A DNA stretch of 41,340 bases from Fidelibacterota bacterium (GTDB lineage Bacteria > Fidelibacterota > Marinisomatia > Marinisomatales > Marinisomataceae). The notes under the pieces are model-generated. The model did not search any database and was not told the origin of the DNA. It worked only from the letters and a program-made list of their open reading frames with translations. The stretch lies in assembly GCA_029253045.1 (NCBI GenBank), contig JAQXAG010000075.1:1-41340 (forward strand), read 5' to 3'. A program made the position numbers and the translations under genes. Positions within the stretch are counted from its first letter, which is position 1, and every line of letters starts with the position of its first letter. Below, piece after piece: positions 4,382 through 32,217 of the stretch.

Positions 4382-5614
4382 ATGTCTGATATAACAAGAC
4401 GAGAATTTATTCGAAGAAGCTTAATACTTTCTGCTGGTGCATCATTGATAATTTCTTGTGAGGACAACGAAAATATTCCATCTAATCCTATCTCAAGCTC
4501 TCCAGGAATGCTGAGCTCAAATGGTAATGCAAAAAAAATTATAGTAATAGGTGCTGGTATGTCTGGGTTGGTTGCGGCATATGAATTAGTTAGAGTTGGG
4601 CATGATGTGACTATTTTAGAAGCGAGAGATAGAATAGGTGGCCGAGTCCTTACTATTCGATCCCCATTTTCGAATAACCATTTTGCAGAAGGTGGTGCTG
4701 CGAGAATCAAGCCCAGCCATAATCTAACCCTTGGTTATGCCAATCATTTCAATTTAAACTTAGACCCCTTTTATGCTACTTCTGGAGATTATGTAAATAT
4801 GTCAAATGGGAATCGTGAAATTATTTCAAATAATACTTACTTAAATACTAGCTATGGTTCCATTTTACGTAATGAATATTTGAAAATACGGGGCGGGTCA
4901 GATCTCCTGCCACATTCATTTTATAATTCTAGCGCTTTAAATAATAAAATATATCTTGGGGTTCCAGTTACTTCTATTCACCAACAGAATAATAATGTAA
5001 CTGTCCAAACTTCTAATGGTAATCAATTTATTGCTGATAGAGTACTATGTACGGTACCTATAACGGTACTTAATAAAATTCAATTTACTCCACCGCTATC
5101 ACCCGAAAAGCAAACTGCAATGAACGGTGGATATCGCTATGCACCCTCAACTAGAGTTTATATGCAATTTCAAAATAGATTCTGGGAAAATGAATCTTTG
5201 AATGGTTGGGGTAATAGTGATATACCTGAAGAAATATGGCAACCTACATGGGACTTGGCAGGCTCTACTGGAATCATAATGTCTTATTTGCGTTGGACTG
5301 CTGCACAAGAAATGGATGCATTAAGTGAAGAAGAACGTATCAATTATATATTAAGTCGTTGGGAAAATATTTTTCCTGGTGCAGCCAGTAGTCTACAAAG
5401 TGGGATGTCTCAATCTTGGGCTGAAGAAGAATGGTCTAAAGGCGCATGGGCCTCACCTACAGGCTCTCAAGATGCCGCTCTGGCAAATCATATCGGCTTA
5501 GCTGAAGATCGTATTCATTTTGCTGGTGAGCATGCATCAGATGATCATGGCTGGATGCAAGGGGCATTGTTTTCTGGACTGCGTGCAGCTGCAGAAATTA
5601 ATGAAGGAAATTGA
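4382..5614 (+). CDS. Flavin-containing amine oxidase (MAO family) with Tat signal/lipobox
   Basis: TRREFIRRSLILSAGASLIISC (twin-arginine + lipobox-like Cys), then IIVIGAGMSGLVAAYELVRVGHDVTILEARDRIGGRV (FAD-binding) and the C-terminal HFAGEHASDDHGWMQGALFSGLRAA motif. Confidence 0.88.
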   Translation: MSDITRREFIRRSLILSAGASLIISCEDNENIPSNPISSSPGMLSSNGNAKKIIVIGAGMSGLVAAYELVRVGHDVTILEARDRIGGRVLTIRSPFSNNHFAEGGAARIKPSHNLTLGYANHFNLNLDPFYATSGDYVNMSNGNREIISNNTYLNTSYGSILRNEYLKIRGGSDLLPHSFYNSSALNNKIYLGVPVTSIHQQNNNVTVQTSNGNQFIADRVLCTVPITVLNKIQFTPPLSPEKQTAMNGGYRYAPSTRVYMQFQNRFWENESLNGWGNSDIPEEIWQPTWDLAGSTGIIMSYLRWTAAQEMDALSEEERINYILSRWENIFPGAASSLQSGMSQSWAEEEWSKGAWASPTGSQDAALANHIGLAEDRIHFAGEHASDDHGWMQGALFSGLRAAAEINEGN

Positions 5615-30281: not shown

Positions 30282-31454
30282 TCAATTATTGTCTAAGGTT
30301 TTTTGGTATTTCTCTATTGCTCTATAAATTGAAGTTGCTAATGTATCTCTATACTTTGGGCTTCTTAATTTTTTCTCTTCTGTTGGGTTAGAGATAAATC
30401 CGAGCTCTACCAAAACGTTTGGCATAGAAGCGCCCATTAATACATAAAAACCCGCTTGTTTTACGCCCCTATTTTTGCTCTGAATTCTTTTTCCCATCTC
30501 TTCTTGAACCAAGGCAGCAAATTGTTCACTAAAATTTGCAAAACCAGCTTGAGCAATAGTCGCCGTGATAAGAGCTTCATCTGTTAGCTTTTGAGCGCTG
30601 CCTCCCTCGAGCTCTAATACTGCATTTTCTCTAGCAGCCACTCTTACAGCTGCTTGATTCCTGTTGGGACCAATCAAAAATGTTTCAAACCCGCTTGCTC
30701 TTCTATCTTCAGCTGCATTTGCATGTATACTAATAAAAAGATCTCCATTGTTTTCATTTGCAAACCTTGTTCTTTCTCCTAGCTTTAAAAAAATATCTTC
30801 ATCTCTTGTTAAAATTGTTTTGATATTCATATTTTTTGATATTTTTCTTTCAAGTCTTTTTGCTACATCTAAAGCAATGTCTTTTTCGCGTGTTCCTCGA
30901 TATCCAATAGCTCCGGGGTCTTTACCTCCATGACCTGGATCAATAATAATTGTATTAAATTTCCATTTATTTTTTTCCGCAGTTAAATCGGTTACTACTA
31001 TTGGAGGTATCTCTTTTTTAATATTCGAATTAAAAGCAATAGACATTGCCCCGTAGTCTATCGAAAAGCTATTTGAGCCATGTGTAGATAAAATATTAAA
31101 AAAGTTATCTATGGGTACGTAGTATTCTGCATTTTTTTTAATAACACTGCTTTCCATTTGGTAAGTCTTTTCATCAACAATAATAAATGGAATATTGTAT
31201 GACAACTTAATTTTGAAGCTGTCTAAATAAATCACAATTTTTTCTGTCTTTTCATTTACGAATGAACCGCTACCAATAATTTTTCCTAAATCATTTACAG
31301 ATACGTAGTACTGATTTTGCTTTAAAATGTCTGCTTTGCCAAGCACGACGTTGCTCTTACCTAAAATAGTGATAGCCTGTTGATTACTTGCTACAGCAAT
31401 TGATAGGAAGAAGATGATAGATAAAATAGTGCGTAGAAGATTTGATAATTTCAT
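30282..31454 (-). CDS. N-acetylmuramoyl-L-alanine amidase (Amidase_3), secreted
   Basis: IIDPGHGGKDPGAIGYRGTREKDIALD, LFISIHANAAEDRRASGFETF, NVLVELGFISNPTEEKKL. Signal peptide and an N-terminal copper-amine-oxidase-N-like/AMIN-type domain. Confidence 0.94.
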   Translation of the reverse strand: MKLSNLLRTILSIIFFLSIAVASNQQAITILGKSNVVLGKADILKQNQYYVSVNDLGKIIGSGSFVNEKTEKIVIYLDSFKIKLSYNIPFIIVDEKTYQMESSVIKKNAEYYVPIDNFFNILSTHGSNSFSIDYGAMSIAFNSNIKKEIPPIVVTDLTAEKNKWKFNTIIIDPGHGGKDPGAIGYRGTREKDIALDVAKRLERKISKNMNIKTILTRDEDIFLKLGERTRFANENNGDLFISIHANAAEDRRASGFETFLIGPNRNQAAVRVAARENAVLELEGGSAQKLTDEALITATIAQAGFANFSEQFAALVQEEMGKRIQSKNRGVKQAGFYVLMGASMPNVLVELGFISNPTEEKKLRSPKYRDTLATSIYRAIEKYQKTLDNN

Positions 31455-31481: not shown

Positions 31482-31508
31482 AAAAGGGCTCAATTTTTGA
31501 GCCCTTTT
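31482..31508 (-). terminator. Intrinsic terminator downstream of the small membrane protein pair
   Basis: AAAAGGGCTCAA TTT TTGAGCCCTTTT, perfect 12-bp stem, between the 70-aa ORF stop (31541) and the amidase start (31454). Confidence 0.85.
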
Positions 31509-31540: not shown

Positions 31541-31753
31541 TTATTTTTTCATCCACCCTGCAACAATCATTACTGCAACTAAACCAGCAACGCCTCCGTC
31601 ACCAATCATAGCCACCGCACTACCAATACCTGCGATAACACCAAATACGTCATCATACAAAATACCGATAATAGTACCAGCAACAACCACTTGCGTCAAT
31701 AGGCCTGTTAATTGACCTAAAGTATCATTGATTTTTTTGAATGCATTTTTCAT
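31541..31753 (-). CDS. 70-aa two-TM small membrane protein (paralog of 31840..32046)
   Basis: MKNAFKKINDTLGQLTGLLTQVVVAGTIIGILYDDVFGVIAGIGSAVAMIGDGGVAGLVAVMIVAGWMKK. Strong Shine-Dalgarno TTTGGAGGACAAACATAATG. Sequence-similar neighbour. Confidence 0.85.
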   Translation of the reverse strand: MKNAFKKINDTLGQLTGLLTQVVVAGTIIGILYDDVFGVIAGIGSAVAMIGDGGVAGLVAVMIVAGWMKK

Positions 31754-31780
31754 TATGTTTGTCCTCCAAACTTTTAATTT

Positions 31781-31814
31781 ATAAGAGCCTCATACTAATG
31801 TATGAAGCTCTTAT
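31781..31814 (-). other. 15-bp stem-loop between the two small membrane protein genes
   Basis: Minus strand ATAAGAGCTTCATAC-ATTA-GTATGAGGCTCTTAT (one G-U pair). No U-tract downstream on the minus strand. Confidence 0.75.
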
Positions 31815-31839
31815 TTTTGTTAGTTTAATACGATCTATC

Positions 31840-32046
31840 TTATAACCATGACAAAAAGACTACTAATACTAGCAATCCTGTAACGCCACCGTTTAGAAAT
31901 GTATCAACTAAATTCATAATTCCACCAAGTGGGTCCATTCCTGTTGGATATAGTATGTTTGCAAAAACAAAAAATATTACCGCTGCTTTTACTACACCTG
32001 TTAAACCACTTAACGTACTCGTTATCATTGAATCCCATGAAGCCAT
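31840..32046 (-). CDS. 68-aa two-TM small membrane protein (paralog of 31541..31753)
   Basis: MASWDSMITSTLSGLTGVVKAAVIFFVFANILYPTGMDPLGGIMNLVDTFLNGGVTGLLVLVVFLSWL. Strong Shine-Dalgarno AAGGAGGAATAACATG. Confidence 0.85.
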   Translation of the reverse strand: MASWDSMITSTLSGLTGVVKAAVIFFVFANILYPTGMDPLGGIMNLVDTFLNGGVTGLLVLVVFLSWL

Positions 32047-32076
32047 GTTATTCCTCCTTGATTAGTTATTAACTAG

Positions 32077-32178
32077 TTAAAAAAAAGGTAAAACGCCACA
32101 CTTTACGAGTGGATTTTTACCCCCATTATTAATCATGTCAATATGATTAAATCTTTTAAAAAAGTTGTCTTTATTCAT
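32077..32178 (-). CDS. Putative 33-aa leader ORF
   Basis: ATG..TAA reading MNKDNFFKRFNHIDMINNGGKNPLVKCGVLPFF, starting ~10 nt after a TATAAT box and ending in the U8 tract of the hairpin. Confidence 0.35.
   Translation of the reverse strand: MNKDNFFKRFNHIDMINNGGKNPLVKCGVLPFF
32087..32121 (-). terminator. Terminator-like hairpin (attenuator or sRNA terminator) in the leader of the small membrane protein genes
   Basis: Minus strand GGTAAAA-AT-CCAC-TCGTAAAGT-GTGG-CG-TTTTACC directly followed by TTTTTTTT. Confidence 0.65.
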
Positions 32179-32188
32179 CTTTTTTATA

Positions 32189-32217
32189 ATTATAGGCGCT
32201 TTTTCCCGATGAATCAA
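32189..32217 (-). promoter_or_regulatory. Sigma70-like promoter
   Basis: Minus strand TTGATT-(17 nt: CATCGGGAAAAAGCGCC)-TATAAT; near-consensus boxes with optimal spacing. Confidence 0.7.

Follow-up and report, generated by a model that had tools for sequence, protein, structure and literature searches.

Several described systems of small membrane proteins resemble the gene pair reported here (genes A and B, together AB) in part. TrbC/VirB2 pilins (PF04956) share with A and B a short length, a pair of hydrophobic helices and a loop rich in Gly, but they come with a T4SS ATPase, a long signal peptide that is cleaved off and, in the form stored in the membrane, termini on the periplasmic side; A and B appear to lack all of these. 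Class II phage holins (about 70-100 aa, two transmembrane segments (TMs), both termini cytoplasmic) are similar to A and B in size and predicted topology; however, they belong to phage lysis cassettes, whereas A and B are chromosomal, vertically kept and surrounded by housekeeping genes. Small multidrug resistance proteins that work in pairs, EbrAB among them, are encoded by adjacent paralogous membrane genes and function as a heteromer, with four TMs and an essential Glu, while A and B have two predicted TMs and no conserved membrane carboxylate. The light-harvesting alpha/beta pair pufBA of Rhodobacter likewise consists of two adjacent tiny membrane proteins, each with one TM and a pigment-binding His; they form hetero-oligomers and are made in excess, as A and B may be, and no sequence match between pufBA and AB was found. 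In the account given in PMC10253847 (citing Klug et al. 1987), a hairpin in the pufBA mRNA sets transcript stability and subunit ratio. This hairpin lies after pufBA, whereas the one described below lies between A and B.

The window analysed here is a 41,340-nt stretch of contig JAQXAG010000075.1, from a streamlined genome of 0.96 Mb and 97% completeness that its relatives place in Marinimicrobia (SAR406). A first-pass annotation of its sequence had pointed to a tandem pair of tiny, paralogous membrane proteins, and both ORFs are indeed present, adjacent and on the minus strand (Table 1). As that annotation had also stated, the two proteins align end to end, with 30% identity over 63 aa and no gaps (E=7e-7 in a single comparison), and in most genomes the A profile finds B and the B profile finds A. 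The gapless alignment and this cross-recovery place the likeness beyond chance, and A and B are real paralogous genes.

Table 1. Coordinates of the AB operon and of other genes in the window.
Feature	Position	Strand	Description
AB operon promoter (predicted)	32189-32217	minus	TTGATT (32217-32212), 17-nt spacer, TATAAT (32194-32189)
Leader inverted repeat	32129-32150	minus	TTAATCATATTGACATGATTAA; near-perfect palindrome; small RNA hairpin or operator
Leader hairpin	32079-32124	minus	GGGGGTAAAAAT...GTTTTACC, then T8; resembles a terminator and lies about 30 nt ahead of the Shine-Dalgarno of A
Shine-Dalgarno of gene A	32055-32061	minus	AAGGAGG; predicted duplex -11.2 kcal/mol (standard anti-Shine-Dalgarno assumed)
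Gene A	31840-32046	minus	68-aa ORF, upstream member of the pair; amphipathic N-terminus, TM1, acidic loop with short helix, GGxxGL motif, TM2 (TMs predicted)
Intercistronic hairpin	31781-31815	minus	AATAAGAGCTTCATAC...GTATGAGGCTCTTAT; between A and B
Shine-Dalgarno of gene B	31763-31768	minus	GGAGGA; predicted duplex -9.3 kcal/mol (standard anti-Shine-Dalgarno assumed)
Gene B	31541-31753	minus	70-aa ORF, paralog of A; lysine-rich N-terminus, TM1, loop (FGVI and Gly-rich helix), GGxxGL motif, TM2, C-terminal KK (TMs predicted)
Terminator-like hairpin	31482-31508	minus	AAAAGGGCTCAAAAATTGAGCCCTTTT; ends the operon; palindromic, use on the plus strand also possible
AMIN-domain amidase gene (amiC)	30282-31454		next gene downstream of AB
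Flavin amine oxidase-like protein gene	4382-5614		N-terminal RREFIRRSL twin-arginine-like motif, then lipobox-like Cys

A and B form a self-contained, separate operon with its own conserved promoter, hairpins in the leader and between the genes, and a terminator, features that the first-pass annotation had not picked up. The predicted promoter matches the consensus at 10 of 12 positions; furthermore, a TTGATT-N17-TATAAT-like site beginning 137-171 nt before A was present in all 15 genus operons checked, 13 of which have a perfect TATAAT. It is followed by a hairpin-bearing leader of about 135 nt. The inverted repeat of this leader is almost invariant in 11 genus leaders, and two other leaders carry the arms AATCATG/CGTGGTT, in which the pairing is preserved. 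For the second, terminator-like leader hairpin, a consensus fold with three compensatory pairs was obtained from 11 genus leaders, and the leaders of 67 pairs across the phylum fold better than their dinucleotide shuffles (mean z -2.2). As some relatives (L012 and L013) have lost its U-run, this hairpin is not a universal terminator, and a stabilising role seems preferable to attenuation. The intercistronic hairpin has a fold of z -7.0 in this genome and shows compensatory double changes at 4 of 10 consensus pairs among 13 genus sequences. Intercistronic sequences of 68 pairs likewise have more stable folds than their dinucleotide-shuffled versions (mean z -3.3), and the A-B spacer, 9-152 nt long in the 118 distinct pairs collected, reaches a folding energy of at most -10 kcal/mol in 112 of them. 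A terminator-like structure lies at most 120 nt from B in 89 of the 118 pairs. Searches of the locus against Rfam gave nothing above the gathering score; a known riboswitch or sRNA in the leader or spacer was rejected because the matches were far sub-threshold and all fell at the terminator palindrome. An operon shared with amiC was rejected as well, given the intervening terminator and an adjacency limited to the genus.

Both genes have unusually strong Shine-Dalgarno (SD) sequences, in line with the first-pass annotation. According to duplex energies calculated with the standard anti-SD, which was assumed because an exact pattern for the 16S 3' tail had no match in this assembly, the predicted SD duplex is matched by 0.7% (A) and 2-4% (B) of 135 genes that encode 150 aa or more and come from the window plus 20 further contigs of this genome. 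GGAGG is present in only 2 of these 135 genes. The start regions read CAAGGAGGAATAAC-ATG for A and GGAGGACAAACATA-ATG for B. Of the 118 pairs, 116 keep GGAG ahead of A and 113 ahead of B, and TTAACTAATCAAGGAGGAATAAC at the SD of A is kept in 11 genus leaders. The codon usage of A and B is unlike that of ribosomal protein genes, which we counted against the structural reading favoured below.

Profile searches covered 245 Marinimicrobia genomes, so that the extent of the family is known within this phylum, and gave matches to A in 135 and to B in 140 genomes; an exact 8-residue pattern search reaches close relatives only. The pair is found throughout related genomes and, in strongly divergent form, in families f4, f5, f8 and f20. 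All 118 distinct pairs have A followed by B on the same strand, and the only two unpaired copies are both near contig ends. In family f10, the pair is duplicated head to tail as A-B-A-B (L047 1-1717 and L122, G044:C232:900-2800), and the two B copies of L047 are identical. A sequence titled Cryomorphaceae bacterium (L008, BOWN01000006.1) carries a Marinimicrobia AB locus with 80% protein identity, and this MAG is therefore probably misnamed or contaminated. In a tree of A-type and B-type sequences, which has few columns and long branches, the labels change 4 times, compared with 42 times in shuffles, so the two types separate. A and B thus likely derive from an old gene duplication, the timing of which is imprecise from this tree. 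In every comparison within the genus, dN falls far below dS, and the pair is under strong purifying selection. Covariation between the two proteins was uninformative at an effective sequence number of 34.

Hydropathy and charge pattern of A and B agree with two TMs and with both termini inside. Lysines, and K+R overall, are concentrated at the termini, while the inter-TM loop has a K+R of 0.03 in A and 0.69 in B and a D+E of about 2.5. By the positive-inside rule, the basic termini and acidic loop imply an N-in/C-in orientation, and both proteins are predicted to be hairpins with an acidic periplasmic loop. AlphaFold models built on genus-level sequences placed helices at residues 2-32, 39-52 and 55-67 of A (mean pLDDT 64) and 2-32, 36-50 and 53-68 of B (mean pLDDT 63); with such weak pLDDT values, the hairpin geometry stays predicted and the models are too weak for a fold search. 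Conservation falls mainly on Gly and hydrophobic residues, including a GxxG motif before TM2 in 118 of 118 sequences of either protein. The terminal Trp that the first-pass annotation attributed to each protein is not general; what is general is an aromatic residue near the C-terminus (115 of 118 in A, 111 of 118 in B). No catalytic-type residue, His or TM2 Asp/Glu is conserved in the A or B alignments, and no signal peptide is evident as judged by sequence and charge. Start codons with conserved SDs lie about 15-19 residues before TM1. Two identities were rejected on these features, namely a pufBA-type light-harvesting pair, as neither A nor B conserves a His to bind the pigment, and the c subunit of F-type ATP synthase, as there is no conserved TM2 carboxylate and the loop is acidic and hydrophobic where that subunit has a polar cytoplasmic one.

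No match of A or B reached the cut-off in Pfam, NCBIfam or PHROGs, and searches of PDB, phage and plasmid sequences gave no significant match. The literature consulted on SAR406 small proteins held nothing informative for A and B. Scattered weak profile matches to TrbL, NuoM, AcrZ, CvpA and His1 capsid probably reflect generic hydrophobic-helix similarity. No clear match to a characterised family was found, and the earlier description of a duplicated two-TM hairpin family, predicted to be highly translated and without a named family, is supported.

Strict pairing, the autonomy of the operon, the translation signals and the lack of polar active-site residues lead us to favour, tentatively, a reading in which A and B form an abundant, obligate hetero-oligomer of the cytoplasmic (inner) membrane, most likely with a structural or scaffolding function. 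An old gene duplication would have produced two paralogous subunits, and a dedicated two-gene operon would supply them in large amounts. The hairpins in the leader and between the genes would probably make the mRNA more stable and determine the A:B ratio, for which the pufBA-type hairpin is a known precedent. Each subunit would be a hairpin with both termini cytoplasmic and an amphipathic N-terminal helix. Its acid-rich periplasmic loop might hold a glycine-rich re-entrant or amphipathic helix, and its short second TM would be entered via GGxxGL. Such subunits may build an abundant scaffold in the membrane or form microdomains there, in Marinimicrobia that are mainly aerobic, rather than serve as a one-off enzyme subunit.

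Ranked next, and in our view rather unlikely, is a heteromeric ion channel or pore, in which a ring of A and B hairpins would be lined or gated by the Gly-rich helices and the acidic loop. Two-TM hairpins, small-residue motifs and an acidic mouth fit an oligomeric pore, as do the charge pattern and conserved glycines of A and B, and heteromeric channels are often built from paralogous pairs. A channel would in fact give a sequence signature identical to that of a scaffold, which counts against the latter. Foldseek on the AlphaFold models returned nothing significant; the top matches of A were NaK channel pore domains, but at E values of 6-10 and probabilities below 0.1. There is, however, no selectivity-filter-like signature and no invariant polar residue within a TM, and a channel is needed in few copies, so very strong translation signals would be unusual. 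The oligomeric pore and the membrane-organising microprotein, both suggested in the first-pass annotation, may each still describe A and B.

Also unlikely, and ranked behind a channel, is an accessory role, with A and B serving as small subunits within some larger membrane complex, be it respiratory, Sec/YajC-linked or engaged in envelope assembly. With neighbouring genes named by reading of their sequences, several families have the pair immediately upstream of yajC-def-fmt-rsmB (L071, L093, L094, L095, L096, L097, L098, L099 and L100), which might connect AB with YajC, an accessory protein of the Sec system. Other families of the order have AB next to outer-membrane protein genes, lying between glycosyltransferases and genes for a PorV-like outer-membrane protein, an HHH-type protein, the amidase and murI, and in another family it comes after rlmN, purine nucleoside phosphorylase and a Bax-inhibitor-type protein. 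In the window, AB is flanked by the divergent eno and the AMIN-domain amidase gene; the synteny with amiC and eno holds within the genus and is absent beyond it. No neighbour is thus constant phylum-wide, which speaks against an accessory role, and since the neighbours vary by clade while the pair stays intact, AB acts as its own unit. At the genome level, nearly all families with AB have a haem-copper oxidase, AB being present in 17 of 22 COX1-positive families versus 1 of 9 COX1-negative families (Fisher p 0.001), an association that is confounded by phylogeny and habitat. The co-occurrence is a hint of aerobic or pelagic life. However, COX1 is present without AB in families f25 and f31 and mostly so in f30; families without either include f13, f21-f23 and f26-f29. 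A link to T9SS was rejected as uninformative, because the marker Por_Secre_tail is near-universal in the phylum (243 of 245 genomes) and does not discriminate.

Lysis or holin-like proteins, a candidate of the first-pass annotation, are very improbable. Predicted topology and size fit class II holins, and a cell-wall amidase gene is next downstream in the window, but a terminator separates it from AB, the amidase appears to have a Sec-type signal, and it is not adjacent to AB in other classes. Furthermore, there are no phage genes near AB, searches of viral contigs, phages and plasmids found no A or B homolog, and the pair is vertically retained phylum-wide. Even less probable is a type I toxin-antitoxin system or two-peptide bacteriocin, for which small size, hydrophobicity, tandem paralogy and a structured 5' leader could be cited; against it stand the strength of the SDs, vertical inheritance with usually a single pair in a genome, the strict A-then-B order over the phylum, and no leader peptide, immunity gene or known family. 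The least probable reading makes A and B pilins of the TrbC/VirB2 type that belong to a secretion or pilus machine not recognised so far. It draws on TrbC (PF04956) profile matches below the cut-off, found in 2 of 21 A sequences with a best E of 0.005 and for neither window protein. The earlier suggestion of such a topology fails on the absence of VirB4 (PF03135) from all 41 genomes searched, most of them carrying the pair and with a positive Caulobacter control, on the lack of an evident signal peptide and on a predicted N-in/C-in topology opposite to that of the pilins. Sub-threshold matches also spread over unrelated hydrophobic families.

Going back to the structural hetero-oligomer, a bolder and more doubtful version is that A and B are founders of a new abundant two-component membrane scaffold or proteinaceous coat, with a copy number and two-subunit logic like those of light-harvesting pairs. 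Marinimicrobia are among the abundant uncultivated ocean bacteria, and present annotation misses the function of AB entirely. The A and B profiles and the operon hairpins offer a simple handle for searching existing metatranscriptomes and metaproteomes, and the small size of the pair makes it convenient to express and study in E. coli. That the pair is kept in a streamlined genome of 0.96 Mb, is never split and has SDs among the strongest of those sampled in this genome points to an important membrane function. If the scaffold or coat were real, it would serve membrane organisation in aerobic ocean bacteria of a major uncultivated marine phylum.
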